Below, one piece after another: positions 11,450 through 50,518 of a stretch of DNA of 64,000 nt. Made by a program: the position numbers and the translations under genes. The notes under the pieces are model-generated. The model saw only the letters and a program-made list of their open reading frames with translations. It did not search any database and was not told the origin of the DNA. The DNA comes from Salipaludibacillus neizhouensis (GTDB lineage Bacteria > Bacillota > Bacilli > Bacillales > Salisediminibacteriaceae). The stretch lies in contig NZ_KZ614146.1 of NCBI RefSeq assembly GCF_002886185.1, positions 2,340,930 through 2,404,929 of the forward strand. Direction: 5' to 3'. The first letter of the stretch is position 1; each line of letters opens with the position of its first letter.

Positions 11450-11580
11450 TAAGAAAAACGCGTAGCGTCTTTTGTTAAATACAGCGTGATCTTTAGCCAC
11501 AATCATTTAAGTGTCAAGCGTGGGTTTCTCTTGACACGCGTGGCGTAAAGATAGCTGTCAACTTATACATTCTTATCTTG
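11450..11580. repeat. Dispersed structured element, copy A
   Basis: TAAGAAAAACGCGTAGCGTC starts the element; it shares its order of sequence blocks with copies at 37276 and 50386. A small terminator-like hairpin (ACGC/GCGT then TTTT) is followed by a long stem in which GCCAC pairs with GTGGC and an inner GTGTCAAG pairs with CTTGACAC. Stem sequences differ from the other copies but still pair. Confidence 0.8.
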
Positions 11581-11582
11581 AT

Positions 11583-11612
11583 AAAAAAAAGAGGATGACT
11601 TTAGTCATCCCC
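11583..11612 (-). terminator. Terminator of ppc
   Basis: On the minus strand GGATGAC / GTCATCC closes a 4-nt loop and runs into eight T residues. Confidence 0.85.
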
Positions 11613-11671
11613 TTTCTGTTTCAAGCAATATAAATGTTCCTAGTTAATTCCATCTTCTTTCGGAAAAGAGA

Positions 11672-14428
11672 TCAACCAGTGTTCACTAGCCCTGCGGCTA
11701 CTCCACTAATTGTTAACAATACATCAGTCAAACGTTCTTCAGACTTTTCATCTGATTCACGCATACTTTGGATAAGATCTACCTGAAGGAAATTCAGTGG
11801 ATCTACATAAGGGTTTCTGCGATGAATGGACTCTTGGATGTTCGGTGTATGGTCAAGAAGTTCTTCATTTCCAGAAATCTTTAACAGCACATCTTTTGTT
11901 TTATTATACTCTTGTTGTATTTCCCCGAAAATTCTATCAGCAATACTTTTGTCTTCCACTAACGTCATGTATTCTTTTGCAGTTTGCATGTCAGCGGTCA
12001 TTAGGGCCATTTGTAAATTATTAATGGTTGATTGGAAAAACGGCCATTTCTGGTACATATCTTGCAGCATTTCAAGGTTCCCATCATCCTTTGACGCAAA
12101 GGAATGAAGACCAGTTCCAGCTGCGAACCAAGCAGGTAACATTTGTCGGCACTGAGTCCAAGCAAACACCCATGGAATGGCACGTAAATCTTCAAACTTT
12201 TCGCTGCCTTTTCGACTCATAGGTCTAGAACCAATGTTTAGTTCTCGTAATTCCTCTAAAGGAGTTGTTTGTTTGAAATAGGTTAAGAAATCTTCATCTC
12301 CAAAGACAAGTGATTGGTATTTATCTAATGAATTTTGGGAGATCTCTTCCATTGCATCTTCCCATGCTTGATCACGGAAGAATCCTTCGTCTGAAGCATG
12401 ATTCCATACTTTAGAAGATGCACTTATTAGCGCTGATGCCGCTTGCTCCAAGTTACGATAAGCGATGTCTTTAAGAAGATATCTGCTTGAAAGTACTTCC
12501 CCTTGTTCCGTAATCTTCACACCATCGCCAAGCGTCTCTACAGGCTGAGAAAGAATACTTCTATTAAGCGGTCCGCCTCCTCGTCCTAATGAGCCACCAC
12601 GACCATGGAAAAACTTCAGTGCAATATTAAATTCCTTCGCCATATCATGAATTTCCTGCTGTGCTTTAAATAGCTTCCAGTTAGCTGTTAGCGTTCCTCC
12701 ATCTTTACTGCCATCGGAATACCCTAACATGATTTCCTGGTGATCACCACGCTCATGAATGTGATTACGGTAGACGTCCATCTTGAACAACGTCTTCATA
12801 ATTTCCGGTCCAGCAATAAGGTCGTTAACTGTTTCAAGAAGTGGTGCTACGTGCAAACCTGATTCTACAGTTCCATCTGCATGAAGACGATAAATTCCCG
12901 CTTCTTTAGCTAATACTAAAACTTCCAGTAAATCACTGGCAGATTGAGTCATACTTACAAGGTACACTTCAATAGATCGTGGTCCAAACTCATCATGAGC
13001 TTGTTTAATCAGTTTAAAGTTATCAAAAATTTCTTGCGTTTCCTTTGTGTAATCTTCATTTAATAACATTAATGGACGTGGATCCTGAAGGACCTTTTCG
13101 AGAACCTTTAATTTTTCTTCTTCAGAAAATGAAGGGTAATTATCTGTAATATTAACAACCTTTAAGATTTCAGAGATCGCTGTCTCATGTTCTCCACTAT
13201 GGTTACGAATATCCAGTGTTGCTAAATGAAATCCAAATAATTGAACTTGGCGGATTAATTTATTTAATGTCTTTAATTTATTATCAGACGGTTGATGATC
13301 TTTCGTACTTTTTTGAATCATCAATAAATCATCAATAAGTTCCTCTGAATTATTATAGCCGCTTTTCGATTTCCCGACTTGTCTTACTCTCTTTAACATA
13401 ACTGCAAATTTACGACGATACATTTCTGTTTTAACTGGCCATGCTTCGCCTTTTTTCAAATACGTCTTCTCTTCTTCTTCAACACTTTGAATGAAATCAT
13501 CGCTAAAGCTAATTCGAGTCGTAGATTGACTAAAACGCTTCATTAAATCTACAAGATGCTCATCGTATTTTTTTAATGCTAGTGCTCTTTGCAACTTTAA
13601 CGTTTCCCAAGTTACTTCCGGTGTTACAAATGGGTTCCCGTCTCTGTCTCCGCCAATCCAAGATCCGAAAGAAAGAAAGTTAGGTACTTCCCATGTATTT
13701 GTCGGGTAGTAATTATCCAATTGCTCTTCCAATTCAGAGTGAATATCCGGTAAAACATCAAATAACGTCTGATCGAAGTAATAAATACCATTCTTCACTT
13801 CGTCTAAAACAGTTGGTTTACGATGGCGAAGTTCATCTGTTTGCCATAAAGCCGTTACTTCGTTAACAAGACTTCCATCTAAATGCTTTCGTTCTTTTTT
13901 CGTTAACATTGGATTATCAAATTCCTGTAAAATAGAAGAAATTCGCTTTTGAATTTCCAGCACAGTTCTCTTTGTTGCTTCTGTCGGATGTGCAGTAATA
14001 ATAAGTTCAATCGATAAATCATTGATAATCTGTTGGATAACCTCATCGGAGTGGTTATTTGCCTTCATTGTTGTTACTGCACTTTCAATAGAAATCGGCT
14101 GAATAACACCATCATCTTCGAGCTGATATTGTCTAGCTCGGCGAATTCTGTGATTTTGTTCCGCAATATTTACTAAATGAAAATAAATTGAAAAGGCGCG
14201 AATAACATGTTGTCTTGTTGGTGATTGCAACTCGTGGATTTCTTTTTTTAGCTTGTCGTAAGAAACCTCATTATAATTTTTTCTCAAGTCTTTTGTTGTT
14301 TCTCTAATGCCTTCCACGATGTTAAAAAGTTCTTCTCCACCATGTTGTTTTAAAATGTCACCTAAAATGTTTCCTAGCTTTTTCACATCGTTACGTAATA
14401 ATGAATTATTATCTTCTACCTTTATCAT
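11672..14428 (-). CDS. ppc: Phosphoenolpyruvate carboxylase
   Basis: PEPC adds bicarbonate to PEP to form oxaloacetate and refills the TCA cycle. The start at 14428 follows CAGGAGG by 6 nt, giving 918 residues, the normal length. The catalytic motifs are all visible: TAHPTEATKRTV in the N-terminal third, GSWIGGDRDGNPFVTP, LGYSDGSKDGG, and the mobile loop FFHGRGGSLGRGGGP. The protein ends with NTG, the usual C-terminal tail that enters the active site. B. subtilis lacks this enzyme and uses pyruvate carboxylase, while several halo-alkaliphilic Bacillaceae have it. It stands alone with a terminator. Confidence 0.98.
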   Translation of the reverse strand: MIKVEDNNSLLRNDVKKLGNILGDILKQHGGEELFNIVEGIRETTKDLRKNYNEVSYDKLKKEIHELQSPTRQHVIRAFSIYFHLVNIAEQNHRIRRARQYQLEDDGVIQPISIESAVTTMKANNHSDEVIQQIINDLSIELIITAHPTEATKRTVLEIQKRISSILQEFDNPMLTKKERKHLDGSLVNEVTALWQTDELRHRKPTVLDEVKNGIYYFDQTLFDVLPDIHSELEEQLDNYYPTNTWEVPNFLSFGSWIGGDRDGNPFVTPEVTWETLKLQRALALKKYDEHLVDLMKRFSQSTTRISFSDDFIQSVEEEEKTYLKKGEAWPVKTEMYRRKFAVMLKRVRQVGKSKSGYNNSEELIDDLLMIQKSTKDHQPSDNKLKTLNKLIRQVQLFGFHLATLDIRNHSGEHETAISEILKVVNITDNYPSFSEEEKLKVLEKVLQDPRPLMLLNEDYTKETQEIFDNFKLIKQAHDEFGPRSIEVYLVSMTQSASDLLEVLVLAKEAGIYRLHADGTVESGLHVAPLLETVNDLIAGPEIMKTLFKMDVYRNHIHERGDHQEIMLGYSDGSKDGGTLTANWKLFKAQQEIHDMAKEFNIALKFFHGRGGSLGRGGGPLNRSILSQPVETLGDGVKITEQGEVLSSRYLLKDIAYRNLEQAASALISASSKVWNHASDEGFFRDQAWEDAMEEISQNSLDKYQSLVFGDEDFLTYFKQTTPLEELRELNIGSRPMSRKGSEKFEDLRAIPWVFAWTQCRQMLPAWFAAGTGLHSFASKDDGNLEMLQDMYQKWPFFQSTINNLQMALMTADMQTAKEYMTLVEDKSIADRIFGEIQQEYNKTKDVLLKISGNEELLDHTPNIQESIHRRNPYVDPLNFLQVDLIQSMRESDEKSEERLTDVLLTISGVAAGLVNTG

Positions 14429-15108
14429 TGATTGAACCTCCTGTAAAAATGATTGCATTTAATCAAATATTACGCAGATTGTCGATCATGATGATAAGGA
14501 CAAAACTTATCCACCATGGACAAAAAGCGTCCCGAAAAATGCAAAGAATTTTTCACTGCTATTAGTTCTATTCTATCAAACAGCTTGTGTAAAAAACAAA
14601 TATTTCTGATTATTACTGTACAACTATTCTTCATTAGTCGAAAAACTAACCCAAAATTTCCCCTCGGAAATAAGTAATAGGTTTTAACATAGCATATTTC
14701 TGCCTATTCGACAAATTAAGAAGAATGGAATAATAGACATTTGTTGAACCTTCTGGTGATCCCTTTTTGACAACTGAAGCTATGAAGAGCTTGAGTTTTC
14801 CACTTCACACATATAGCAAGAAAAGAACAATAATCTATCGTTGCAAAAAGTTTTTTTATCTTACTCGTCTTTTATAAATAACCCTGTTATCGGACAAATC
14901 CATCTAACTTCTCTTCCTTTCTGCGGTTACTAGTTACATGAAGTCCGTTTGTTGCTTTCTACTTGAGTAGCCGCCTCTCGCTTCTCCAAACACTTCTTTA
15001 AAAATAATAAAACCATCTAATATTCAAATAATATATGACTAAATCATTTATTTTTAGTATAACTAGAGTAGTCATTAATAATTAATTTATTTTGGAGTTG
15101 AAACGGTA
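14429..15108. other. Long intergenic region between divergent ppc and tauE-like genes
   Basis: About 680 bp hold no recognisable gene. It must contain the promoters of both divergent genes. A plausible one for the plus-strand gene is ATGACT at 15035-15040, 17 bp, TATAAC at 15058-15063. TTTTTGACAACTGAAG near 14764 looks like a -35 element but has no good -10. Short frames here lack an RBS. Confidence 0.45.
15035..15063 (+). promoter_or_regulatory. Candidate promoter of the TauE-like gene
   Basis: ATGACT and TATAAC are spaced by 17 bp, 46 bp before the start codon. Confidence 0.45.
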
Positions 15109-15858
15109 ATGATTGAATTAGGCGCTATTCAAATCTCATTAATAATCCTCTCGGCAATGTTAATTGGCATATCTAAAACTGGCTTACCAACGCTCGGTAT
15201 TTTAGTCGTCGCAACTATGGCATCTGTCTTTCCTGCTAGAGAGTCAATCGGAATTGTTCTGCCGATGCTCATTGCTGGTGATATTATTGCGGTCACCTAT
15301 TATCGCAGAAGCGTTCATTGGCTTACCTTGTGGAAACTCGTTCCCTGGGTTTTAGGTGGTCTTATTTCAGGATATTTACTGTTACTGTTCAATTCAAGTA
15401 GCAGGTCGATTGAAATGATTATAGGTACAATTGTATTATCTCTCATTGTAGTTCAATTCAGCAGAGAATATTTCATGAACAAATCGAATGCAGCTCTTCC
15501 CCAGTCAAAAAGCTTTATCATTTTCATGGGGACGCTAGCGGGCTTCACAACAATGGTTGGAAATGCAGCTGGACCGATTATGGCCATTTTTTTACTAGCC
15601 ATAGCTTTACCAAAAAAAGAATTTATCGGAACCGGCGCATGGTTTTTTCTAACCGTCAATCTCATTAAAGTCCCTATGTATACTAGCTTAGGTCTTATTT
15701 CATTGGAAACATTGTCAATTAATTTATGGCTGCTTCCTTTTATAATTATTGGTGCAGTTATTGGCATTAAGTTTTTACCTCTAATACCACAGAAACTATT
15801 TAATACAATTATCCTTGTCCTGTCTTTCCTTGGCGGATTACAATTATTACTCCCATAA
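15109..15858 (+). CDS. TauE/SafE-family anion exporter/permease
   Basis: The 249-residue protein is almost entirely hydrophobic, with about eight predicted membrane helices. It has the family's two repeated motifs: GISKTGLPTLGILVVA near the N-terminus and GTLAGFTTMVGNAAGPIMAIFLLA in the middle. The family (UPF0721) moves sulfite, sulfoacetate or other small anions across the membrane. The substrate cannot be given. GGAGTTG precedes the ATG. The next gene follows by about 80 bp with its own RBS. Confidence 0.88.
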   Translation: MIELGAIQISLIILSAMLIGISKTGLPTLGILVVATMASVFPARESIGIVLPMLIAGDIIAVTYYRRSVHWLTLWKLVPWVLGGLISGYLLLLFNSSSRSIEMIIGTIVLSLIVVQFSREYFMNKSNAALPQSKSFIIFMGTLAGFTTMVGNAAGPIMAIFLLAIALPKKEFIGTGAWFFLTVNLIKVPMYTSLGLISLETLSINLWLLPFIIIGAVIGIKFLPLIPQKLFNTIILVLSFLGGLQLLLP

Positions 15859-15941
15859 TTACTTTTGACCACATCTCCTATCTAAATAATTGTTTTAGAA
15901 GATCAAGTTGAGTAAACTATAATTTAGGAGAGGTGAATAAC

Positions 15942-16427
15942 ATGGACGTTCTTATTTGGATTATTATTGTTGCATTATTTATTATTAGCTTCATCGGTCT
16001 TATATATCCAATCATTCCGGCAGTATTAATGCTTTGGGTTGGAATTATTCTTTATTACTTTTTTATAGATGCCTCTGCATTGTTATGGTGGACTTGGGGA
16101 TCTCTGATAGCATTGACCATTGCTATATTTGTTGCTGATTATCTGGCTAGCATGTATTTTGTTAAGAAATATGGTGCTTCAAAACATGGAATGACAGCTG
16201 CGACCTTAGGACTGATTGTTGGCAGCTTTATTATACCGCCTTTTGGTATTTTAATTGTACCTTTTGTATTAGTTTTAGTCATCGAATTGCTACAACAACA
16301 CTCACTAAGCCATTCATTCAAAGCCGCTGTTGGTACACTGCTAGGCTTCCTGACGAGTACATTTGCCAAAGGAATGATTCAGCTTATACTTATTGGAATC
16401 TTTTTAGTAGATGTTCTTATTTTCTAG
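15942..16427 (+). CDS. DUF456 membrane protein
   Basis: The ATG at 15942 follows AGGAGAGG by 7 nt, giving 161 residues. It is a small integral membrane protein with about four to five helices. The Gly/Pro pattern LIYPIIPAVLMLWVG near the N-terminus, GMTAATLGLIVGSFIIPPFG in the middle and GTLLGFLTSTFAKGMIQL near the end match the DUF456 family, which has glycine-zipper-like segments. No function is established. The next gene starts 21 bp further on, so they may form an operon. Confidence 0.82.
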   Translation: MDVLIWIIIVALFIISFIGLIYPIIPAVLMLWVGIILYYFFIDASALLWWTWGSLIALTIAIFVADYLASMYFVKKYGASKHGMTAATLGLIVGSFIIPPFGILIVPFVLVLVIELLQQHSLSHSFKAAVGTLLGFLTSTFAKGMIQLILIGIFLVDVLIF

Positions 16428-16448
16428 CACTCGGAAGGAGTTAAAATC

Positions 16449-17147
16449 ATGGAAGGCCCGTTACATAAGTATTTTAAACAGCAATCCTTATATTGGTTAA
16501 AAAATAAAATGACTGACCTTTGCGCAAACGAGGTTAAGTTGTATGCACGAAGAAAAAAATTAAAGGCTGATGCACTTGGTATTAATTTCAAACGTAAAGA
16601 ATCACGTATTATTGAAGTAAAGATATCTCGCGAAGACTTTCTCCGTGATGAGGTTTTGGCTGCTTCCTATGGCTATCATGCTATTGCCGACTACGCATAT
16701 TTGATGACTCCAGTGGGGCTTCTATCAAAAGAGGAAATACCAATCGGATATGGTCTTTTGGAAATGGATGAATTTGATACTATTAAAGTACGAAGGAACC
16801 CGACACGTAATCCTAAACCCATCCTTAAGCTTGATACGTTAGTGAAACGAACCGCCAGGGCAGCAACAAACGCTGTTTTATTTCAAGAACTTACGAAAGA
16901 AAATAAAGATTTAACGGATGGGGCATTCTCAAAAGAAGCGTTAGCTCATCTTGTTCGGGCAACATGCACATTATGTAAGAAAAGAAAAATGTATTTGATT
17001 CACTCAAGGCAAGAATTCGTCGTGTGCGAATCTCGCACTTGCAAAAATGATATTCCTCTTTTAAAAGCAAGAGTTCACACGATGACGTCATACAATGAAA
17101 ATTTTCTCAACGAGCTCGAGGATTTAATAAGAAATAAAATGACGTAG
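16449..17147 (+). CDS. MmcB-like PD-(D/E)XK nuclease-fold protein with C-terminal Cys-rich region
   Basis: Residues 1-100 match the MmcB/DUF2461-like layout: KADALGINF, then RIIEVKISREDFLRDEV, then YGYHAIADYAYLMTPVGLL. The D and E-x-K residues form a PD-(D/E)XK-type site. MmcB is a DNA-repair nuclease candidate in Caulobacter. Residues 165-205 add CTLC and CESRTCKND, a possible zinc ribbon, which is not part of the basic MmcB domain. The protein has 232 residues and AAGGAG lies 8 nt before its ATG. Substrate and activity are inference. It is followed by a short conserved-looking gene. Confidence 0.68.
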   Translation: MEGPLHKYFKQQSLYWLKNKMTDLCANEVKLYARRKKLKADALGINFKRKESRIIEVKISREDFLRDEVLAASYGYHAIADYAYLMTPVGLLSKEEIPIGYGLLEMDEFDTIKVRRNPTRNPKPILKLDTLVKRTARAATNAVLFQELTKENKDLTDGAFSKEALAHLVRATCTLCKKRKMYLIHSRQEFVVCESRTCKNDIPLLKARVHTMTSYNENFLNELEDLIRNKMT

Positions 17148-17198
17148 ACTATGGTATAATAAGCAATTAGGATTTTGATTATGATAACTGGAGGAACT

Positions 17199-17651: not shown

Positions 17652-17658
17652 GAATACT

Positions 17659-17709
17659 AAAAAAGGAGCACCAACGGTCATCAGGACCTGTTGATACTCC
17701 TTTTTTTAT
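17659..17709 (+). terminator. Terminator
   Basis: A long imperfect stem (AAAAAAGGAG ... CTCCTTTTTTT) with inner CAAC/GTTG and GGTC/GACC helices. Confidence 0.85.
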
Positions 17710-23319: not shown

Positions 23320-24375
23320 ATGGACTTTACCATACAATACCTCTCTTTTTTCGTCTTGCAAGGAGAGGGTCAAGGAGATCAAGGAAACAAATCATTTAAA
23401 CATTATCAAACACTGGATGAAGAGACATACCTAGACCACCCATTAAAAGATTTCCTAGATGGAGAATTAATGAAAATTACTAAACGTAAATCAGAAAGAA
23501 ACCCAAAATCAGAGCAAGTTCCTACTAAAATAGGTCACTTTGTTGTGGAACCTGGCTATGAGTTGGATACAAATCCTAACTATAACTTGTTTCAACGATT
23601 GCGTTTGGCAAATGTCCTAGATGAATTCAAAGACCATAGTGAAAAACTAGTAAGATCTTATTTAGAAACGAGCTCTATCAGAGCGGGTGCTATGCTTGTA
23701 ATTCGTGCAAAACTAGACAAATTTATGGACGATCCGTTTATCTTTATTTTAAAATGTGATTTTGAGCCAAAGGTTGCCTCAATCACAAATGAACAAACAT
23801 TAATTCAGCATGTTGAAATGGCCATTACCGCTAAGAACATGAAATCCATCCAATACCCTTACATGCCTGAAGAAGGCATGCTCGAGGAATGGGAGCTGAA
23901 AATCCATCAGTCCTCTCACGCACGTTATTTTGAGGACTTCTTAAAATATGTAGAATACAACCGGTCGATGGTGGAAATCATTCGAGATAAAGTCGTCGAA
24001 ACTGCCCAGCAATACATCGCTGAAACATATGAAGAAAACAGTGAAGAAAGAGCACAGGAAGAAGAATCGATCGAAGCATGGTCAAATACACCTGAACGTC
24101 AACTGCAGGAAAAATGGACAACTGAGCAAGTCGTAGAGGCTTCTTACCCGATCATTGATCATCAGCCTGAGGTCGAGTTAAAGCTTAAGTTGGATCACAT
24201 GGAAGTAAAGGCTCTCTTATCCGATTTCAGTGACAACCTTCATATTGCTAAGGTAAATGGGAAGTATGTAATATTGATTGAAGGAGAAGCATTTTCGTTT
24301 GATAAAAGTGCGTCACCTGTAGAGTTTTTACAGCCGGATTCGTTGGAGAATGTGTTGAAGAGGATTGGGAAGTAG
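23320..24375 (+). CDS. DUF3900-like protein, intact parent of two nearby fragments
   Basis: The start at 23320 follows AAAGGTGATAG, giving 351 residues. It begins MDFTIQYLSFFVLQ and contains RKSERNPKSEQVPTKIG, then NLFQRLRLANVLDEF. The C-terminal part has KWTTEQVVEASYPIIDHQP and DKSASPVEFLQPDSLENVLKR. The whole is soluble and acidic and resembles the DUF3900 family of Bacillales, reminiscent of nucleoid-associated NdpA-like proteins; that assignment is from memory. Its function is unknown. Two degraded copies of its 3' half occur at 30376 and 33145. Confidence 0.72.
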   Translation: MDFTIQYLSFFVLQGEGQGDQGNKSFKHYQTLDEETYLDHPLKDFLDGELMKITKRKSERNPKSEQVPTKIGHFVVEPGYELDTNPNYNLFQRLRLANVLDEFKDHSEKLVRSYLETSSIRAGAMLVIRAKLDKFMDDPFIFILKCDFEPKVASITNEQTLIQHVEMAITAKNMKSIQYPYMPEEGMLEEWELKIHQSSHARYFEDFLKYVEYNRSMVEIIRDKVVETAQQYIAETYEENSEERAQEEESIEAWSNTPERQLQEKWTTEQVVEASYPIIDHQPEVELKLKLDHMEVKALLSDFSDNLHIAKVNGKYVILIEGEAFSFDKSASPVEFLQPDSLENVLKRIGK

Positions 24376-24999
24376 CGGAATTGGTGGTTTTAGTGACCAA
24401 AAGTGTGACCAATTAGATATAGTTAAAATGTTGTTACGAAGGAGTTTTCATAAGTTTTAGTGACCAATAATGTGACCACGAAAATACAAATAAAAACCCT
24501 GTTGTCGTAAAGGTTTCCTATACATTTATAATAATAAGAAGTGGATTTCCGCTTCTTATTTTTTATATACGAGTTATTAACTATTGACTAATGGCTGGCA
24601 TGGATATAATTACGTTACAGGAACTCTTCTGACATTCCAATTTGAGGATATGATCTAAAATAACGATCAGAGGAATACAATTCACTTAATACAATGGATA
24701 TTTAGGAATCGGTTAACCACATGAAAACTATATATATTAATGTACATGATATTATTTTCAATTGATTGTCCTCAAAAAGAGTCCTCTTAGGGCACTCTTC
24801 CTTTATTATTCGCTAAAACCCCACCCTAATGATGTTCAATATATGGATTATAGAATTGAAGTATGTGTGAATAGAAGATCTAAAAAATAACTTTCTATTT
24901 CATCATCTATCATTGAAAATGCTTCATTTTTAGCTACAATTAAATTGGAAAAGAGACCCCTTAGGGAGTCCCTTATTTGACTAACTTGTTGATACTCTT
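24376..24999. other. Non-coding accessory stretch downstream of the DUF3900-like gene
   Basis: The first 90 bp contain GTGACCAAAAGTGTGACCA and ATGTTGTTA, which recur after the fragment at 30732. Terminator-like hairpins occur at 24533-24564, about 24777-24802 and about 24949-24973. No gene is seen; the sequence looks like degraded mobile DNA. Confidence 0.5.
24533..24564 (+). terminator. Terminator
   Basis: A 12-bp stem with one G-T pair (AATAAGAAGTGG / CCGCTTCTTATT) is followed by five T residues. Confidence 0.8.
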
Positions 25000-30375: not shown

Positions 30376-30800
30376 AAGATACATGAAGAAAAATAGTAAG
30401 GAAACAGTACAATAAGGAGAGTCGATCGAAGCTTGGTCTGATACACCTGAATGCTAGCTGCATAGCTGCAGCAAAAATGGACAACAGAGCAAGTCGTAGA
30501 GGTATCCTCCCCGATCATAGCATCAGCCCGAGTTCGAGCTTAAGCTCAAATTGGATCAGAAGTATAGGCTCTGTTATCGGGTTTTAGTGAGAACTTACAC
30601 ATCGCTAAGGTAAATGGGAAGTATGTAATATTGATTGAAGGAGAGGCATTTTCTTTTGATAAAAGTGCGTCGCCAGAGGTGTTTTTGCAAACCGATTCGT
30701 TGGAGAATGTGTTGAAGAGGATTGGGAAGTAGGGTTTACACGAGAGAAAGAGTTGTTTTTATGACCAAAAGTGTGACCACTCTCACATACTCAAAATGTT
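30376..30800 (+). pseudogene. DUF3900-like gene fragment 1 (3' end plus downstream flank)
   Basis: The sequence parallels 24025-24460. TCGATCGAAGC, AAATGGACAAC, TAAATGGGAAGTATGTAATA and GTTGAAGAGGATTGGGAAGTAG are shared. Several deletions and stops break the frame. Similarity continues past the stop codon into GTGACCAAAAGTGTGACCA and AAAATGTTGTTA, so this is a segmental copy and not just a gene-internal match. Confidence 0.88.
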
Positions 30801-30836
30801 GTTATAAAGCATTTCGGTTTATTACTTGTTTAATAG

Positions 30837-33144: not shown

Positions 33145-33506
33145 AATGAATGGGGACTGAAAAACCATCAATCCTCTCATGAACGTTTATCCGAGGACTT
33201 CTTAAAATATGTAGAATACAACAGGTCGATGGTGGAAATTATTTGAGATAAAGTCGTTGAAACGATCCAGCAATACATCGCTGAAACATATGAAGAAGAC
33301 AGTGAAGAACGGGTACAGGAAGAGGAATCGATCGAAGCATGGTCAAATACACCTTGAACGCCAGCTACAAGGAAAATGGACAACAGAGCAGGTCGTAGAA
33401 GCCTCTTCCCCTATCATTGATCATCAGACTGAGGTCGAGTTAAAGCTCAAGTTGGATCACATGGAAGTTAAGGCTCTCTTATCCGATTTCAGTGACAACC
33501 TATACA
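33145..33506 (+). pseudogene. DUF3900-like gene fragment 2 (internal part)
   Basis: The sequence parallels about 23886-24240 of the intact gene at high identity (for example GACTTCTTAAAATATGTAGA and CGATCGAAGCATGGTCAAAT). A TGA replaces the CGA codon early and a one-base insertion follows ACACCT. Ends do not coincide with fragment 1, so the two come from separate events or copies. Confidence 0.9.
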
Positions 33507-33848: not shown

Positions 33849-34100
33849 TAAAAAACGTAGTGTCTTTTTTTCTATTTTGTCGCTTTTGTTATTAAGGAAG
33901 GTTGTTTCTTGGCTTGGAAAAGCAAAAAACACCACTCATTAAGAAAGGGTGTCCACACAGACTATTTTTTGCATCAATAACTCGAAGTAGCGAAGGCGGC
34001 GACTCCAACAGGAAAAGCAATAGCTGAAGCGTTGCCCGCGGAAAGCGTCCACCTAAAGCGTATTCGAGCATTCTGTTCGATGAAAATACAATCTCTCTTA
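33849..34100. repeat. Bacillaceae dispersed repeat (GCGACTCC...GCGTCC type)
   Basis: GGCGGCGACTCCAACAGGAAAAGC, GCGTTGCCCGCGGAAAGCGTCC and GTATTCGAGCATTCTG follow each other from about 33980. The block order recurs in part at 8446, 54218 and 61755. AAAAACGTAGTGTCTTTT at 33850-33868 is a short piece of the other dispersed element. No gene lies here. Confidence 0.75.
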
Positions 34101-36442: not shown

Positions 36443-37249
36443 TCACACTTCTTTAACGAGTAAGTGTTTTGCGATTATTTCGGAATTAATATTGTTGAGT
36501 TGATTTAAAAATTCTATTTGAAAAGAACCAGGTCCTTTTTCTCCACCTCTTGTCATGGCTCTTTCTGCTGCAATACCATAGGTTGCCAATGCAGCTACTG
36601 TGCCAGTTAACAGATCCTTTTCCGTAGAGATAAAAGCTCCAATTACAGCGCTTAACAGGCAACCAGCCCCAGTAATTTTGGATAACATCTCGTGTCCATT
36701 TTCTACTAAGTAAGTCGACGTTCCATTTGAAACGACATCTTCTTTTCCTGTAATCACTACTGTCGTGTTAAATTGCTTGGCAGCATTTTTTGCTAAGTCT
36801 ACTTTATTTCCGCCGGTTTCTCCAGCTTCTACACCTCTTATTTCCCACTGCTGTCCAATCATGTGAGATATTTCTGCTGCATTGCCTCTCAGCACAGTTA
36901 CCGCTATTTTATCCATCATGTTTCTGGCCACCTTTGTACGGTATGGCGTTGCTCCTGCTCCAACAGGATCAAACACTACTGGGATACCTTTTTCATTAGC
37001 AGCTTTGCCGGCAAGCACCATGGATTTCACCTTGTTTTCATCCAATGTTCCTATATTTAAAATGAGTGCTTGTGCGTTACTTGTCATATCTTCAACCTCT
37101 TCTTTTGCATGGGCCATTACGGGTGCAGCGCCGAGCGATAAAAGACCATTTGCGGTGAAATTAGTCACAACCTCATTGGTTATATTGTGGATTAGGGATT
37201 TACGTTCTCTTAATTCGTTTAAAATTTCTGCAATTTTTTGATTATTCAT
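36443..37249 (-). CDS. thiM: Hydroxyethylthiazole kinase
   Basis: ThiM phosphorylates the thiazole moiety for salvage. The start at 37249 is preferred over 37255 because AGGAG is then 8 nt away. The 268-residue protein has IHNITNEVVTNFTANGLL at the start, VFDPVGAGATPYR in the middle, and the catalytic GAGCLLSAVIGAF. It is first in the thiMDE operon, behind the TPP riboswitch. With ThiD and ThiE it gives salvage of thiamine from its two moieties. Confidence 0.95.
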   Translation of the reverse strand: MNNQKIAEILNELRERKSLIHNITNEVVTNFTANGLLSLGAAPVMAHAKEEVEDMTSNAQALILNIGTLDENKVKSMVLAGKAANEKGIPVVFDPVGAGATPYRTKVARNMMDKIAVTVLRGNAAEISHMIGQQWEIRGVEAGETGGNKVDLAKNAAKQFNTTVVITGKEDVVSNGTSTYLVENGHEMLSKITGAGCLLSAVIGAFISTEKDLLTGTVAALATYGIAAERAMTRGGEKGPGSFQIEFLNQLNNINSEIIAKHLLVKEV

Positions 37250-37275
37250 TTTCATTCTCCTCTCAATTTATGTAA

Positions 37276-37393
37276 TAAGAAAAACGCATAGCCGTCTTTT
37301 ATTAAATGCAGCGTCAGCTTCCACCGCCATTTTTTTAAGTATCAAGGATGGGCTTCCCTTGATACGCGCGGTGTGTAGCTGCCATCTTATCTT
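37276..37393. repeat. Dispersed structured element, copy B, in the thi leader
   Basis: TAAGAAAAACGCATAGCCGTC begins the element. The long stem is CAGCTTCCACCGC with GCGGTGTGTAGCTG around an inner GTATCAAGG / CCTTGATAC hairpin. It lies between the riboswitch terminator and thiM, so it is transcribed with the operon in antisense orientation to the order given. Confidence 0.85.
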
Positions 37394-37399
37394 TTGAAA

Positions 37400-37428
37400 A
37401 CAAAAAAGCTTCCTCAGTTAGGAAGCGG
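37400..37428 (-). terminator. Riboswitch expression-platform terminator
   Basis: GCTTCCT / AGGAAGC closes a 5-nt loop and is followed by TTTTTT on the minus strand, 60 nt after the TPP aptamer. Confidence 0.85.
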
Positions 37429-37487
37429 GTAAACGCGATACTTTATGAACTAACTAATTGTAACCTATGTTAATTCGATAAAGGAAT

Positions 37488-37577
37488 CATCCACTTTCCT
37501 ACGCTGGTATCAACCAGATCAGGTTAAAAGGGTTAAGGTAACGCACCTCTCTCAGCTAGATAAAGCACCCCTAGTGT
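37488..37577 (-). promoter_or_regulatory. TPP riboswitch (THI element)
   Basis: On the minus strand the conserved blocks are in order: GGGGTGC, GCTGAGAGAGG, ACCCTTTTAACCTGATCTGG and GATACCAGCGTAGG. It precedes thiMDE and a terminator, so TPP would cause early termination. Confidence 0.95.
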
Positions 37578-37602
37578 CTCTTATTCAATTGAAATTTTCT
37601 CC

Positions 37603-43827: not shown

Positions 43828-43840
43828 GTTCCTTCTTTAC

Positions 43841-44758: not shown

Positions 44759-44770
44759 TCAAGTTATGTG

Positions 44771-44799
44771 CCGAACTGAAACCTAGTTCGGTTTTTTTC
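44771..44799 (+). terminator. Terminator after darB
   Basis: CCGAACT / AGTTCGG encloses a 7-nt loop and is followed by seven T residues. Confidence 0.9.
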
Positions 44800-44976
44800 G
44801 TCTTAAAGCCTTTTTCGATATTAAAGATGCTCGTTCATTTATGGAGATGCATATTTTCGCTGTAGACCATCTAATAATTCGGTAATTGCTTCGAAATTCT
44901 AATTGGCAGAGTTTTGTGTCCAATACGATCGAGCTAGAAGGATTAAAAAGCTTCCAATATTATAAAAACTCAATGC

Positions 44977-45018
44977 TAAAAGCACCTCACATTTTTCACA
45001 CGATGAATGAGGTGCTTA
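44977..45018 (-). terminator. Terminator of the SRPBCC gene
   Basis: AAGCACCTCA and TGAGGTGCTT pair around a loop of about 19 nt; T residues follow on the minus strand. Confidence 0.7.
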
Positions 45019-45057
45019 ACTATTTTATTAAACGCGGCAGCATTTCCACAAATAAAT

Positions 45058-45489
45058 TTAATTCATAAATTTATTTAACTGTTTTTCCCTATCAGAAAAC
45101 ATCCCTTTTAACATAAGGTTTACAATGAAAGGAGGCACGAATGATTCATATTCTACTCGATCAATCATCTTTGTTTTATAAGAACCTAGCTCTTTAAATG
45201 CATGCACATGGCGCCAAGTTTTGAATGGAAAAGGTAATTTCTCTCCTTCATCCATAAAATAAGCTTCTGGAACTACTTTAGTAATCCTCCCTTTCCAGTG
45301 TAGCCGTAGCAGAATAAAATCTAAACGAAGATGTACCGAAGCTCCTTCTTTTACGTCTTTATCCCCAAGAATATCAATCTTTGGAAAAGCAGTAATACTA
45401 GCTAAATTCTCATTCGTCTGAAAAAATGACCAAACCTCTGATATCGAACGTGGAAGCTCAGTTTTATAATAAAAAGTATGACGAAACAT
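45058..45489 (-). CDS. SRPBCC (START-like) family protein
   Basis: The 143-residue length fits one START-like ligand-binding domain. The N-terminus reads YKTELPRSISEVWSFFQTNENLA, the hallmark of SRPBCC proteins. Then come strands with LRLHWKGRITKVVPEAYFMD and RHVHAFKELGSYKTKMIDRV. The fold binds hydrophobic ligands; the ligand is unknown. AGAGG lies upstream of the ATG. It follows the yaaR gene by 22 bp on the same strand. Confidence 0.8.
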   Translation of the reverse strand: MFRHTFYYKTELPRSISEVWSFFQTNENLASITAFPKIDILGDKDVKEGASVHLRLDFILLRLHWKGRITKVVPEAYFMDEGEKLPFPFKTWRHVHAFKELGSYKTKMIDRVEYESFVPPFIVNLMLKGMFSDREKQLNKFMN

Positions 45490-45511
45490 AGACAGCCTCT
45501 TTTCCCTCTAT

Positions 45512-45949
45512 TTACGCATAAACATTTACGAGTAAGCCGCGTATTTCTCCAACCATATTCAGGATATCTAATCCTTTCTTTTGTTCATTAAGAACAGCGT
45601 CAGTTAAATTCAAGAGTTTTTGGTCAACTTCTCTAACAATTTTGTAAACTTTAGTCCTTCCTCGTCTATTAAAACCTTTTCGCTCCTCCAGACTCAATCC
45701 AAGTTTAACAGCATCATCCATAAATTCTTTAACCAATTGCTTGTACTTTCGAAGTTCATCTATTGTTCTCGATTCAGATAACGTTTTTCCTTGGTCATCT
45801 ATTTTAGTCAGCAGCTCATTCAATTTTTCATACTGAGCGTTATTACGACCTTGTTTCATAATTTCTTGAAAAGAAACCTTTGCTTCCGTACTGGCTTTTT
45901 TTTGATCTATCTTATTTAAACTGGCTCGTCCAACACGTTGCACATCCAT
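45512..45949 (-). CDS. yaaR: YaaR-family protein (DUF327)
   Basis: The 145-residue protein matches YaaR (146) in length and pattern: FQEIMKQGRNNAQYEKLNELL, GKTLSESRTIDELRKYKQLV and EVDQKLLNLTDAVL. It is a helical, soluble, basic-ended protein. In this genome it is in the flagellar cluster, downstream of hag on the same strand, which suggests a link with motility. Its molecular role is unknown. AGAGGAG precedes the ATG. Confidence 0.85.
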   Translation of the reverse strand: MDVQRVGRASLNKIDQKKASTEAKVSFQEIMKQGRNNAQYEKLNELLTKIDDQGKTLSESRTIDELRKYKQLVKEFMDDAVKLGLSLEERKGFNRRGRTKVYKIVREVDQKLLNLTDAVLNEQKKGLDILNMVGEIRGLLVNVYA

Positions 45950-46199
45950 TTTAGAATTCTCCTCTTTAAGTGGTTATTGTTTCTTCATTATATAAAATTT
46001 TTATTAAATTAGATAGAGACCATCTTGTATATATCCTATCAATTTCTTTGAGTATTGAACTTTATTCTATTTACAAAGTAAACTTTTTGGAAGGGTTTCT
46101 TCAATAAATCTTTATCAAAAAACATAAAGAAGCATCCAATTGCATTGTATTTTAATCGTATCCTATCAGCAACCTTCTATTGCAACCTACTCTACAAAT

Positions 46200-46232
46200 A
46201 AAAGAAAGACTACCGAGGCAGCCTTTCTTAGT
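46200..46232 (-). terminator. Terminator of hag
   Basis: An imperfect stem (AAGAAAG ... CTTTCTT) follows the hag stop. Confidence 0.7.
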
Positions 46233-46238
46233 CGAATT

Positions 46239-47087
46239 CTACTGTAATAATTGAAGAACACCTTGTGGCAGCTGATTGGCTTGAGCAAGCATTGCTGTTG
46301 CTGATTGATTAAGAATATTGTTCCGAGTAAATTCCGTCATTTCAAGGGCCATATCTGCATCACGAATACGAGACTCTGCACTCGATAGATTTTCATGGGT
46401 CACTTGAAGATTATTTATTGTATGCTCCATTCGGTTTTGTAAAGCACCTAGTTGCGCGCGAGTATCAGATACATAACTAATTGCTCTGTCCAAAACAGAT
46501 ATAGGGTCTTCACCTTCTGCATATTCATCTTCATTTGCAATATTAATGTCTTTAATAGTGGTGGTAGTAAACTCTTCGTTTGTACCTAAGATATCAGAAC
46601 TCATTTCTGGTATATTTATCTCAACGTTCTGACCTGAATTGGCTCCAATTTGAAAGAATAAATTATTATCATTACCATCTAATAGAGTTCGTGTGTTAAA
46701 TTCTGTCTTGTCTGAAATGCTGTCTATTTCTTTCACTAATTCATCAATTTCTTTTTGAATTTGCTCTCTGTCTTCTTGTGTATTTGTATCATTAACACCT
46801 TGTACAGCTAACTCTCTCATTCTCTGTAACATCGAATGAACTTCAGTCAATGCACCTTCTGCAGTTTGGATAAGAGATATACCGTCCATCGCATTTCTTT
46901 CTGCTTGTTTTAAACCACGGATCTGAGATCGCATTTTTTCAGAGATTGCAAGCCCCGCCGCATCATCAGCAGCACGATTTATTCTTAAACCAGAAGAAAG
47001 TTTCTCTAAGTTTTTTGATGTAGCGTTTTGATTTTGATTCAAGTTCCTGTATGCATTTAAAGCTTGTATATTATTATTGATTTTCAT
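46239..47087 (-). CDS. hag: Flagellin
   Basis: The 282-residue protein has the conserved N-terminal D0/D1 (MKINNNIQALNAYRNLNQNQ, SGLRINRAADDAAGLAISE) and the C-terminal helix (MALEMTEFTRNNILNQSATAM, ending NQLPQGVLQLLQ). The central D2/D3 region is short, as in Bacillus Hag. It forms the filament outside the cell. AAGGGG lies 10 nt upstream of the ATG. It follows fliS by 20 bp, so both are read from the sigma-D promoter at 47592. fliD is not next to it. Confidence 0.97.
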   Translation of the reverse strand: MKINNNIQALNAYRNLNQNQNATSKNLEKLSSGLRINRAADDAAGLAISEKMRSQIRGLKQAERNAMDGISLIQTAEGALTEVHSMLQRMRELAVQGVNDTNTQEDREQIQKEIDELVKEIDSISDKTEFNTRTLLDGNDNNLFFQIGANSGQNVEINIPEMSSDILGTNEEFTTTTIKDINIANEDEYAEGEDPISVLDRAISYVSDTRAQLGALQNRMEHTINNLQVTHENLSSAESRIRDADMALEMTEFTRNNILNQSATAMLAQANQLPQGVLQLLQ

Positions 47088-47107
47088 TACGTGAGCACCC
47101 CTTAAAT

Positions 47108-47521
47108 TTATTCGTACTTAATATTTTGTTCATAAGCACTGTTTTTCATCTTCAATGTTTTCTGAGAAGGATTATCGTTTGACTTTAATGCCTTCACCCA
47201 AGCTTCACTTAATGATTCAATAGTTGTGATAACTTCATCAATAATAGTTGTGTCTTTTTTAAAATTTGCGGTTACTAGCCTATCTGCCAAATAATTATAG
47301 AGTACATCTAACTGATCTGCTATTATCCCAGCTTCGTAGTTAATCCCCGCCCCTAATCGTTGGAGAATATCATTTGTTTTTTGAAGTTTTTCATTAGCGA
47401 CAAAATAGTTTTTTTCATCTATAGCTTGCTTCGCATCTTCCAGATTATTTAGGCAGGCTTCATACAGAAGTGCCGTAATTTCCTGAGGAGATTTTTTATG
47501 TAAAGCTTCTTTTGAAATCAA
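47108..47521 (-). CDS. fliS: Flagellin export chaperone FliS
   Basis: The start is TTG at 47521 because GGAGG ends 8 nt upstream; the ATG at 47536 contains that RBS. The 137-residue helical protein has KKSPQEITALLYEACLNNLED and ADQLDVLYNYLADRLVTANF, the FliS pattern. FliS binds the C-terminal helix of flagellin and prevents early assembly. The order fliS-hag differs from B. subtilis (hag-fliD-fliS). A sigma-D promoter lies just upstream. Confidence 0.87.
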   Translation of the reverse strand: MISKEALHKKSPQEITALLYEACLNNLEDAKQAIDEKNYFVANEKLQKTNDILQRLGAGINYEAGIIADQLDVLYNYLADRLVTANFKKDTTIIDEVITTIESLSEAWVKALKSNDNPSQKTLKMKNSAYEQNIKYE

Positions 47522-47591
47522 TTCGTTCACCTCCATGAAAACATCGCCACATCCATGTATGTTTTCGTGTCCATCCGTGTCTCTAATAGTA

Positions 47592-47618
47592 TTATCGGTT
47601 ACTTCCTATAAATAATTA
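47592..47618 (-). promoter_or_regulatory. Sigma-D promoter of fliS-hag
   Basis: TAAT (47615-47618), 15 bp, ACCGATAA (47592-47599) against the consensus TAAA-N15-GCCGATAA. Confidence 0.82.
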
Positions 47619-47915
47619 ATAGTTTCTTTCCATTTCTTCTATAAGTAATAACATTTCAGCAATAACCGCGTACAGCTGAGGAGGGATATTGTCTCCCAAA
47701 TCCAAATCCAATAAATTTTCAAGTAGCATCGTGTCCTCTTCCAGGTGGATATTGTTCTCCTTGGCAAGATCAATAATTTTTTGAGCAACATATCCTTTCC
47801 CCTGAGCAACAATTTGAGGTTCCTCTCCATTTGCTTCATCATAACGAATGACCGCTGCAGAAGGACCATTTAATTTTCGCCGATTTACATGATTAAAATG
47901 CTTCGAGATCATCAT
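47616..47915 (-). CDS. ylqH: FlhB C-terminal domain-like protein, YlqH
   Basis: The 99-residue protein is the cytosolic FlhB C-terminal domain alone: GPSAAVIRYDEANGEEPQIV, KGYVAQKIIDLAKENNIH and NIPPQLYAVIAEMLLLIEEME. The NPTH self-cleavage site of FlhB is not present. YlqH-type proteins can partly replace the FlhB domain in export switching. Its ATG overlaps the ylqG stop, and it has no strong RBS, so translation is coupled. Confidence 0.9.
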   Translation of the reverse strand: MMISKHFNHVNRRKLNGPSAAVIRYDEANGEEPQIVAQGKGYVAQKIIDLAKENNIHLEEDTMLLENLLDLDLGDNIPPQLYAVIAEMLLLIEEMERNY

Positions 47916-50281
47916 ATTTTAAAGTCAAATCCTTCCTTCGTCATAAATGGCAGCAATGGAGTTTCTTCTTGCGGAGCCTCGGCTGTTTTTTTCGCTTCTA
48001 CTGCTGGTGACATTGTACTCGTTTTAATAGCATTGATATGGAAACCAACCTCTTTAAGGTTATCTAGATATTTTTGTCCTATTGCTTCCGCTTTCTCGTT
48101 GAAATCCTGGGAATCATTTTTTAACGTCACATTCAATGTTCGGTCAGAAACGTTCAAGGAAATTCCTAACGCCCCAAGTTTCTTCGTTTCAATATGGAAA
48201 TATAGGTTACAATTCTCCCAATCTACTTGTTCTCCTTCATTTCTAGAATTCACAAATACTTGTAAATTCTCGGCTGCTCCTTTTAACATGATGGGTATTT
48301 GAAGCATTAACGTATGCATGTTTTGCTGAGAATCACTTCGACTGACTAATTGCTGTCCTGCCAAATGTTGAAGTGTTTGCTGAGCCTGCTGCTGGCTTCG
48401 GCTTCCTTCCTCTTCCCCTTTTGCCAACTGCATTAAAATAGATTTCATGTTCCGTTGCTGTAAATCTGGCGGGACTTCTTTACCTGCCGCAAGTAATTGT
48501 GCAAGCTCCGTCTCCCTGTTCATCCCCATCGCTCTTACGCCTTCAAATACTTGACGTCCAGATCCTTCTTGCGTCACGAAAGACCGAGAAACGTGATCCA
48601 AATGTTGTGATAATCTATGCACAGTAGGTTGTGGTTGTCTCCATTCTTGTTCTTGCGTTAAAAAGTGTTGCACCCGTTGATTCGATGGTTTAAATTGCAT
48701 CGCGTCCATCGTTTGTTGCACACTTCTCACTAATTGCCTTGCTTCCTGATAATTCCCTTTTGCCAACAAATTTTTTGCTTGAGCAAGATCACTGCTAGCT
48801 CCTAACATTTTTCTTTCTGTCTTCATATCCGCAAAAAGCATCCAGTCATTTTTCATAATTGACCGATCCAACTGTTGGATAACATTCTCAAGCATCGGTC
48901 TAGTTTGTTGAACTGAATTTTGCCGGAATTGTTGTATCATTGTATCAATTCGACCTAATTGTTTTGACATATCACGTTGAAATTCCTTGAATTGATCTGT
49001 TGCTTGCGCTAGTCGCTCAGTTACTTCTATTACAAGAAAACTTTTTGACGATATTGGAGAAGACTGTAAAAAATCATTTTTCATATATTGTTGCATCTCT
49101 GTTTTAGAGTCGCTTATTAATTGAGCTTGTCCTTCTTTTGGAATGGCTTGTTCCACTTGTTGAAGAGTTTCTACCATTATTTGTCTTGCCTTTAGCTCTC
49201 TCCCTGATTCAAGGCGGTCCGTTGCTTGTAACATCCCTTGATTTAATTGTTGGGTGGATTGAGCAGAGAGGCTCGCCTGTGGCATCTCTGACTTAACCGT
49301 TGCAATTGCTTTTGATAAGTCAGATTCATTTTCAATCATTCCGAGCCAATTGGAAACTGTAGGTATACTTTGTTGCACTTGGTTAGTTGAGTGTGTTTGA
49401 TTACTTAGAGATGTTTTCTGTAGCTGCTGAGTTAATTGAAGCATTCGATCTGCCGCTGCTTCCCTTCCTATTTTTGCTTGCGTAACAATCATTTCCCGAA
49501 GTGCTTGATTTACCTCTTGACGCAATTTCAGGTCACCAGTTCGCTGAACAACTTGCTGTAATTGCTCGATCGATTGCCGTACATTTTGCCCCGATTGCAA
49601 ACTGTTGCGAACATTGTCTATTGCGCGTATAACTGCTTCTCTCGAAGGCATCCGGTTAGCTTCCTTCAATGAATCAGTCTGAGTAACAGGCTCTCTATTC
49701 ACAGATTTAGTCATCTCTTTTATCTGGTCCGTTACTTTGGGTCCATGTAAAGCTTCATGCACCGCCCGAAGTTGAGAAGAACTTGGTTCCAATCTTTTTT
49801 GTGCCATCATTTCAATCGTTTGACCTCGTTCTTTTTGCGTTCCACGTCCAGATTCTAAATACTGTTTCAGGTCATTCGCTGATTCTTTCGTTAAAGGTAC
49901 CCCTCGATCCAACAGCTTTTGTGTTGATTGTACAAGTTCCTTACTAGGTTCCTTATGTCCTAGATCCCGTAATACGCGCTCAGCAGATTGTCCACCAGGG
50001 TTGTTTGTTGCCGTCTCTTTTGATTGCCCAGTATCAGCCTGAACCTCTTTTACTTTTATTCCGTCATTTGATTTTTCTTGGACTTGGATATTAATTCGAT
50101 CGTTTTCAGGAACTTTCCCTTCAAACTTTGCGCGAACCTCTTGTCCTCGAATCGATAAAACAGCTTCTCGGTCAGATATTCTTGATTCCACTCTCGCTTT
50201 ATATATATCGCCTTCTCTTAATTGAGCAGGACGTTCGTTTCCTTTTGTTTGTATATTCAATTGTTGATTTTGTATTTCCAT
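47912..50281 (-). CDS. ylqG: YlqG-like protein with FliK C-terminal domain
   Basis: The start at 50281 follows GGGAGGAG, giving 789 residues. The first 150 residues and a long Gln/Ser-rich middle contain many helical repeats (IEQLQQVVQ, ARQLVRSVQQ). The last 170 residues contain a FliK-type hook-length domain, with GEQVDWENCNLYFHIETKKL and IGQKYLDNLKEVG. FliK senses hook length with the export gate. The Gln-rich middle is longer than in B. subtilis YlqG. A sigma-D promoter lies at 50322. Confidence 0.87.
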   Translation of the reverse strand: MEIQNQQLNIQTKGNERPAQLREGDIYKARVESRISDREAVLSIRGQEVRAKFEGKVPENDRINIQVQEKSNDGIKVKEVQADTGQSKETATNNPGGQSAERVLRDLGHKEPSKELVQSTQKLLDRGVPLTKESANDLKQYLESGRGTQKERGQTIEMMAQKRLEPSSSQLRAVHEALHGPKVTDQIKEMTKSVNREPVTQTDSLKEANRMPSREAVIRAIDNVRNSLQSGQNVRQSIEQLQQVVQRTGDLKLRQEVNQALREMIVTQAKIGREAAADRMLQLTQQLQKTSLSNQTHSTNQVQQSIPTVSNWLGMIENESDLSKAIATVKSEMPQASLSAQSTQQLNQGMLQATDRLESGRELKARQIMVETLQQVEQAIPKEGQAQLISDSKTEMQQYMKNDFLQSSPISSKSFLVIEVTERLAQATDQFKEFQRDMSKQLGRIDTMIQQFRQNSVQQTRPMLENVIQQLDRSIMKNDWMLFADMKTERKMLGASSDLAQAKNLLAKGNYQEARQLVRSVQQTMDAMQFKPSNQRVQHFLTQEQEWRQPQPTVHRLSQHLDHVSRSFVTQEGSGRQVFEGVRAMGMNRETELAQLLAAGKEVPPDLQQRNMKSILMQLAKGEEEGSRSQQQAQQTLQHLAGQQLVSRSDSQQNMHTLMLQIPIMLKGAAENLQVFVNSRNEGEQVDWENCNLYFHIETKKLGALGISLNVSDRTLNVTLKNDSQDFNEKAEAIGQKYLDNLKEVGFHINAIKTSTMSPAVEAKKTAEAPQEETPLLPFMTKEGFDFKI

Positions 50282-50321
50282 GGGTGATTCTCCTCCCAAT
50301 ACATCTCTACTTTCATATACA

Positions 50322-50348
50322 TTATCGGTTTATAGGTGCAGGATGTTA
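50322..50348 (-). promoter_or_regulatory. Sigma-D promoter of ylqG-ylqH
   Basis: TAAC (50345-50348), 15 bp, ACCGATAA (50322-50329). The -10 sequence is identical to that of fliS-hag. Confidence 0.78.
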
Positions 50349-50385
50349 AGACAATATAAGAAATCTGTAGCTAGCCAAATCAACG

Positions 50386-50518
50386 TAAGAAAAACGGCAT
50401 AGCCGTCTTTTATTAAATACAGCGTCAGTTTCCACCGCCATGTTTTAAGTATCAAGGGTGGGTTTCCCTTGATGCGTGCGGTGTGAAGGTAGCTGCCAAT
50501 TTTATAAATTCTTATCTC
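50386..50518. repeat. Dispersed structured element, copy C
   Basis: TAAGAAAAACGGCATAGCCG begins the element; the first hairpin is perfect here (ACGGC-ATA-GCCGT then TTTT). CACCGC / GCGGTG and GTATCAAGGG / CCCTTGATGC form the longer stem. It lies between dinB and ylqG. Confidence 0.88.

Follow-up and report, generated by a model that had tools for sequence, protein, structure and literature searches.

IS200/IS605 derivatives carry two independent end hairpins, and bcr1, a repeat of the Bacillus cereus group, has a target duplication; for many repeat families of bacteria, no mobiliser is known to us. HUH elements and Y1 transposases are described as acting on the lagging-strand template through hairpins (PMC6006769), and bcr1 is described as a dispersed structured repeat classed as a miniature inverted-repeat transposable element (MITE) (PMC3733652, PMC2267715). 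We have analysed a repeat element of about 130 bp that occurs in three full copies in a 64,000-nucleotide stretch of the Salipaludibacillus neizhouensis genome (the window). The element is dispersed over the genome, its structure is kept between copies, its orientation is biased with respect to the replicating strand, and terminators are enriched at one of its ends. In kind, we consider it a structured non-autonomous mobile element.

The element resembles IS200/IS605 derivatives in its hairpin ends, in its bias towards the lagging-strand template, in that no target duplication was found, and in its insertion 3' of a short motif. On the other hand, no linked tnpA was found for the element, a long branched arm spans its middle, and its target side is a terminator hairpin with a T-tract. 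With the repetitive extragenic palindrome (REP) and REPIN systems that work with RAYT (TnpA-REP), the element shares short palindromic repeats in high copy number, and a variant form, which we call type II, holds a GTAG-tagged palindrome that is also found beside a Y1 gene of the same genome. However, the standard form (type I) and the printed copies from other genera are without this palindrome, and the element is larger, asymmetric and tied in orientation to the replichore. The likeness to bcr1 is that of a dispersed structured repeat of similar size, which is a likeness by description and not by sequence. In the open-licence literature, we found no description of this repeat family, nor of any element that joins a placement at terminators to a bias in replication strand, to DNA-like covariation and to the capture of a REP-like palindrome. 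There is a fair chance that the element is more than a variant of a structured non-autonomous mobile element.

A sequence-only reading of the window had reported three full copies of a dispersed structured element with compensatory stem changes, and all three were recovered on the forward strand. Copy A lies at 11450-11580 (150 bits, E = 2.9e-32), copy B at 37276-37403 (104.1 bits, E = 1.3e-21) and copy C at 50386-50518 (135.3 bits, E = 7.5e-29). These scores come from R1, a covariance model built from 38 copies, and are not independent, as all three copies are among its building sequences. R1 agrees with the start given earlier for copy B and extends its end from 37393 to 37403. On the strand used in that reading, the element consists of a 5' hairpin (TAAGAAAAACGC-GTA-GCGTCTTTTATTA), a long arm and a tail (TTATAAATTCTTATCT); in copy A, the 5' hairpin is at 11450-11479 and the main arm at about 11482-11558, followed by an AT-rich 3' tail with the end TTCTTATCTT. 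The long arm is closed by CAGC/GCTG, with ATCTTT/AAAGAT and GCCAC/GTGGC, and has a large internal loop and the apical stem GTRTCAAGG/CCTTGAYAC. The arm pairings given for copy A (GTGTCAAG/CTTGACAC) and copy B (GTATCAAG/CTTGATAC) are correct as read in the sequence, as are the outer stems GCCAC/GTGGC in A and CACCGC/GCGGTG in B and C, while the arm of copy C has to be corrected to GTATCAAG/CTTGATGC, which includes one G·T. The hairpin that was claimed to open each copy is perfect in A and C and one base short in B.

Read on the reverse strand, the element has a terminator-like hairpin at its end, which is followed by TTTTTCTTA. RNA folding gave z-scores of -3.0, -2.0 and -4.15 for copies A, B and C, and of -4.35 and -4.68 for the reverse strands of A and C, so that either strand of A and C folds better than nearly all shuffles. 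The reverse complement is, in our view, probably the biologically relevant strand; read that way, the element stands after a terminator and carries its own terminator-like hairpin at its end. Separately, in 10 full copies (e.g., loci L034, L015 and L033), the upstream reading frame uses the element's first TAA as its stop codon.

The own genome (5.51 Mb) holds well over a hundred copies in total. R1 gave at least 98 matches there, with all 98 scored candidates at E ≤ 1e-4, and copy A alone, used as a DNA query, gave at least 47 matches at E ≤ 0.001 with 40 of 335 candidates scored. A pattern for the 3' tail matched 78 times, against 2 for the reversed control. The type II form was found by reading 40 stretches with such tails; in it, a perfect hairpin, GAGTAGCACCTAC...TGTAGGTGCTACTC, stands in for one half of the apical arm. 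This hairpin has 84 matches at 83 places in the own genome (one was counted on both strands), and the control had 0. The R1 count and the hairpin count overlap slightly, because about 5 of the 83 hairpins fall inside R1 matches. Among 26 type II hairpins in fetched own loci, 18 are within an element by rule and the other 8 by eye. Head-to-tail tandem copies were seen in L010, L012, L018, L034, L048 and other loci.

The sequence-only reading had proposed that a covariance model be built and related genomes searched; R1 has matches in other genera, and the covariation is strong. R1 matched 5 of 40 relatives, the own genome included, and 7 of the 35 family genomes, namely the own genome, G045 (81 matches), G017 (62), G010 (6), G008 (2), G048 (1) and G050 (1). 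The G050 match (L127) is unlike the element when read, and we give it no weight. The 7 other genomes of the genus had no R1 match. When 8 candidates were scored in each of 397 genomes of the order, R1 was positive in at least 4, and a wider model, R2, in at least 13, which fall into 10 of the 135 genera and belong to five families (f1, f3, f6, f42 and f45). Of these 13, six had supplied R2 sequences (G000, G010, G017, G028, G075 and G084), and seven were new to the model (G022, G078, G150, G201, G371, G390 and G408). Between genera, the sequences of the stems and the 5' hairpin are largely different and the layout is kept. The distribution is patchy. A blastn search of plasmids and phages with four queries gave no match, two scans of a genome contig collection with core patterns gave 0 matches, and viral contigs gave either 0 matches or 7 pattern matches in which R2 detects no element.

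The claim of compensatory changes is borne out, and the covariation holds across genera. The own-genome alignment (A1) showed two-sided change at 9 of 38 pairs and exceeded nearly all shuffles in four of five measures; the fifth, which counts further pair types, was not above the shuffles (351 of 500 reach it). When other genera were added, a 39-row alignment, in which two rows are type II copies and a few are partial, showed two-sided change at 29 of 37 pairs, 91.9% paired cells and a covariation score of 0.526, against at most 0.086 with slid partners. A third set of 25 distinct rows, partly from further genera, gave 35 of 37 pairs and a score of 0.648, against at most 0.104 when slid. Because the cross-genus alignments (A3, A4 and A6) were fitted to a model, which favours pairing, the slid controls weigh more than the raw values. 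In A4, there were 12 one-sided and 245 two-sided changes, with 72 unpaired among 976 cells.

The kind of pairing was also distinct. Well-paired positions of the element held 13 G·U against 801 Watson-Crick pairs, together with 9 A·C, which are G·U on the other strand. The thiamine pyrophosphate (TPP) riboswitch, taken as a control, held 16 G·U against 163 Watson-Crick pairs, in a small sample of 7 of the 8 aptamers of the genus (one from the window). Cells are not independent in this comparison. The filter for well-paired positions was applied to the element alone, and the unfiltered counts are 18 G·U in 904 paired cells against 16 in 179 for the riboswitch. Since G·U is rare beside strong covariation, the structure looks like one kept at the DNA level. 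We take this as a sign, drawn from the sequence alignments, that the stems may be kept by folded DNA, or by repair that perfects palindromes, rather than by selection on RNA. The sequence-only reading had proposed structural selection on RNA or DNA; the structure is indeed kept, and RNA is the disfavoured half of that proposal.

The orientation of the copies follows replication in the genomes richest in copies. On the own contig C1, 56 of 60 full copies fit a single cut at 1.83-2.09 Mb, compared with at most 46 in 5000 strand shuffles. As the own-genome cut points were picked from the same data, G045 is the more independent test; there, 40 of 42 among the copies listed (81 matched) fit cuts at 0.80 and 3.02 Mb, which are half of the 4.46-Mb chromosome contig apart, and 300 shuffles reached at most 35. 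The element strand of G045 had negative GC skew in all 7 fetched loci. In G010 and G150, each a single contig, one cut accommodates 8 of 8 listed copies per genome by plain count, and in G017 (57 matches listed of 61), 43 of 46 copies on contigs with at least two copies were on the majority strand, compared with at most 40 in 2000 random draws. In those parts of the own genome with a clear replichore rule, 74 of 79 copies follow it. Where the genes are mostly on the opposite strand, 13 of 15 own copies still follow the replichore, indicating that gene direction does not explain the bias. The neighbouring genes occur in all four arrangements (48, 28, 11 and 8 cases). With leading and lagging strands assigned from GC skew and gene direction, the bias is towards the lagging-strand template, with exceptions in four genomes (G390, G408, G078 and G084).

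The second placement feature is a terminator beside the tail. By eye, each copy stands after a terminator, namely that of ppc for copy A, of a TPP riboswitch for copy B and of a dinB-like gene for copy C. On the reverse strand, a terminator-like hairpin of ppc, read in the sequence at 11582-11613, has its T-tract abutting the 3' end of copy A, and ppc itself lies at 11672-14458 (reverse strand; PF00311, E = 0). The corresponding hairpin at 50521-50555 (reverse strand, read in the sequence) abuts the 3' end of copy C and belongs to the dinB-like gene at 50557-51837 (reverse strand; PF00817, E = 7.5e-52). Copy B starts right after the T-tract of the terminator-like hairpin at 37402-37426 of the riboswitch leader (reverse strand, read in the sequence), the aptamer being at 37479-37582 (reverse strand; RF00059, 77.9 bits). 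It lies in the leader of thiM (36443-37255, reverse strand; PF02110, E = 7e-88), between the riboswitch terminator and the ribosome-binding site of thiM, and therefore separates the TPP riboswitch from the gene downstream of it. In all 7 genus relatives, thiM follows the riboswitch with no element between them. The position of copy B suggests that such elements could rewire regulation.

By a rule that takes an A-tract and a hairpin within 80 nt past the element end, 35 of the 99 own copies have a terminator-like hairpin past the tail and 6 of the 99 have one past the other end, while the rule picks out 113 of 3000 random 80-mers; in 23 of these 35 copies, the hairpin starts 9-14 nt from the element end. 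Other genomes gave 25 of 48 past the tail against 2 of 48 past the other end, with 160 of 2000 for random 120-mers. If an element-like hairpin is also accepted, the number rises to 47 of the 99 own copies. The hairpin is present in 31 of 77 cases in which the tail-side gene runs antisense to the element, and otherwise in 3 of 19. In 71 tails, TTCTTAWC is followed mostly by T, two variable bases, T and then an A-tract, the flank being A-rich at positions 5-12. On the reverse strand, the tail side reads as a T-tract and then TTA. Neither the replication-tied orientation nor the terminator side nor the rarity of G·U had been noticed in the sequence-only reading.

From these features we infer that the element is mobile, and likewise which enzyme would be responsible. 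The explanation we favour, to which we give about an even chance, is a non-autonomous mobile DNA family of about 130 bp that is inserted as folded single-stranded DNA beside terminator hairpins, with a Y1 enzyme of the IS200/REP kind as the suspect. The move would take place in the folded, single-stranded state that the element can adopt when exposed on the lagging-strand template. On that template, the reverse strand would present the target hairpin, its T-tract and TTA, then a junction, then AGATAAGAA, the main arm, the element's own hairpin and TTTTTCTTA, and a second junction. Cutting after such hairpins, and joining the element at the cut, would be the work of a hairpin-recognising enzyme supplied in trans, most plausibly an IS200/REP-like HUH Y1 transposase. 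Because the target and the element's own end look alike, one hairpin-reading enzyme could serve both, and head-to-tail tandem copies would arise because the end hairpin of a resident copy would also be a target. A further-reaching version, which we hold only tentatively and consider clearly less probable, is that the element represents a previously undescribed, order-wide class of single-stranded DNA elements. Such a class would use terminator hairpins both as target and as own end, insert on one strand, swap end hairpins and carry palindromes (e.g., REP), and its enzyme would be one not yet identified. The placement of the element would record its mechanism, namely a preferred replication strand, a terminator by one end and Watson-Crick stems that change in sequence, which makes it a testable case of replication-coupled insertion at terminators. 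The element also suggests that strong covariation need not mean a functional RNA, which is a warning for covariance-based RNA discovery.

Several points weigh against the mobile single-stranded DNA explanation. No transposition event was seen, and thiM yielded no base-exact empty site, the ThiM relatives being too distant at 50-52% identity. By the rule above, 64 of 99 own copies have no terminator past the tail and 52 of 99 have neither a terminator nor an element-like hairpin, and in 26 of 99 the tail flank scores when read in the opposite sense as well. Since such opposite scores are expected of two-way terminators, the direction of the hairpin is less clear than its presence. By eye, G390, G408 and G078 have mixed strands within contigs, and 2 of 8 listed copies in G084 break the one-cut rule. 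Truncation occurs at either end of the element: among 158 matches, 25 are 3'-truncated, 12 are 5'-truncated and 2 are both (39 in total), in a sample biased to full copies and tails with overlapping loci unmerged. As for the enzyme, 31 of 40 genomes have a Y1 match, many of them without the element, and G017, with 62 element matches, has a single IS200-like Y1 match. No R1 match was found in the 16 Y1 loci searched, which are a part of those in the carriers and were taken with flanks of about 1.5 kb, where R1 models the whole element and not the ends alone.

Candidate mobilisers were also considered as correlates, and neither the presence of Y1 nor that of reverse transcriptase tracks the presence of the element.

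The nearest rival, which we consider unlikely, is RNA-based mobility similar to that of group IIC introns, in which a reverse-strand RNA with its own terminator would be inserted after terminator hairpins by a reverse transcriptase on the lagging-strand template. This would fit both placement features, as group IIC introns use a terminator stem-loop (PMC7161350), and titles of works cited in that source state that they insert after terminators and that a group II intron primes from the nascent lagging strand. The element is likewise placed after intrinsic terminators, as an enrichment at one end and not in every copy, and reverse transcriptase matches were present in the own genome, G008, G010, G017 and G050. 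However, the element is only about 130 bp, no group II family was among the Rfam matches of the scanned window and loci, and two carriers, G045 with its 81 element matches and G028, had 0 matches to the reverse transcriptase family PF00078. G·U is rare on either strand, which speaks against RNA. The one-sided truncation expected of target-primed retrotransposition, which we set aside for this reason, was not seen in the biased sample described above.

Also improbable in our view is a MITE of the classical type, for which a DDE transposase would be the mover, TAAGAA/TTCTTA the short terminal inverted repeats and TAA the short duplication. The two ends are indeed inverted repeats of each other, and in 48 of 71 tails the first such triplet to follow is TAA, but no copy-specific target duplication was found in 44 intact copies (1040 comparisons; the best was 4 of 44 against 0.84 expected), where a few of the top comparisons may reflect tandem copies. 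An orientation tied to replication is not expected of a MITE, and, by eye, the first bases of divergent copies differ from their 3' flank. The transposase survey covered Y1 only, and a partner insertion sequence (IS) of another family could have been missed. The sequence-only reading had allowed that the copies might be simply parts of a known IS or MITE; as far as tested, they are not, given that the 16 Y1-transposase loci are without a copy and no copy-specific duplication was found among the copies compared, with Y1 as the sole transposase family surveyed.

Selection on a cis-regulatory or small structured RNA, as the sequence-only reading suggested, has a rather slim chance of being the explanation. 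The strong covariation, the position of copy B within a riboswitch leader and the folding of both strands of A and C would all agree with it. Against this, the orientation tracks replication and not genes, with neighbours in all four arrangements, G·U is rare, and none of the 7 other genus genomes has an R1 match. That no named family fits, as had been stated, agrees with our Rfam scans: those at the gathering cut-off over the window and 13 loci gave TPP and tRNA only, and those by E-value over 3 and 20 loci gave only matches far below the cut-off. Finally, the element might not be selfish but a replication signal of use to the host, for instance a site for priming or pausing; this would account for the replichore-tied orientation, but it is very improbable in view of the 7 other genus genomes without an R1 match, the at least 13 of 397 order genomes with R2 and the common fragments (39 of 158 matches truncated).

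The palindrome carried by type II copies occurs elsewhere in the own genome. A tandem array of GTAG-tagged palindromes, GTAGGTGCTAC/GTAGCACCTAC, with a spacing of about 91 bp lies at 8457-8902 of the window and has the same palindrome as the type II copies. The same palindrome, again spaced at 91 bp, forms a second array next to an own Y1 (RAYT-like) transposase gene (L109, positions 609-1160), which is flanked by the GTAG palindrome and not by the element. The two longest Y1 frames of the own genome have 267 and 202 aa, and the second adjoins an array of this palindrome. Because of these 91-bp arrays, including one beside a Y1 gene, the own genome seems to have a REPIN-like system. The palindrome is not in the aligned type I copies nor, by eye, in the printed copies from other genera, and is present in type II. 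In many copies (e.g., L179, L181 and L188), a REP-like palindrome takes the place of half the apical arm, and two repeat families have therefore merged. In L204, L207 and L211, the element tails are fused to a long repeat, GAAGTAGCGAAGG...CCCGCGGAAAGCGTCC, which is apparently a further dispersed family of the own genome. At L236 (G010), two element subfamilies are adjacent, one of them as three direct repeats 227 bp apart.

The remaining element pieces of the window are on the forward strand. Of the two partial pieces reported earlier, the one near 6410 holds, as a fragment with the 5' hairpin and without the main arm at 6409-6471 (R1 E = 0.003); the hairpin-like piece at 33850-33878, possibly a short form, is not significant alone and has no R1 or R2 match with E up to 1. 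Solo 5'-type hairpins with an AT-rich stretch like TTTTGT..CTTT.TTATCACTGAA were seen by eye at 33850-33890 of the window and in L012, L037 and L043, and may represent a separate short family. At 61609-61756 lies a divergent relative (R2 40.1 bits, E = 1.2e-5; R1 E = 0.0083) that has a long palindrome on its 5' side and shares the core layout of the wider family. The window also contains three diverged copies of a longer segment (23887-24495, 30390-30814 and 33148-33501) with up to about 90% identity, perhaps duplicated genes, and a 30-nt tandem repeat at 62408-62677 that is possibly coding.

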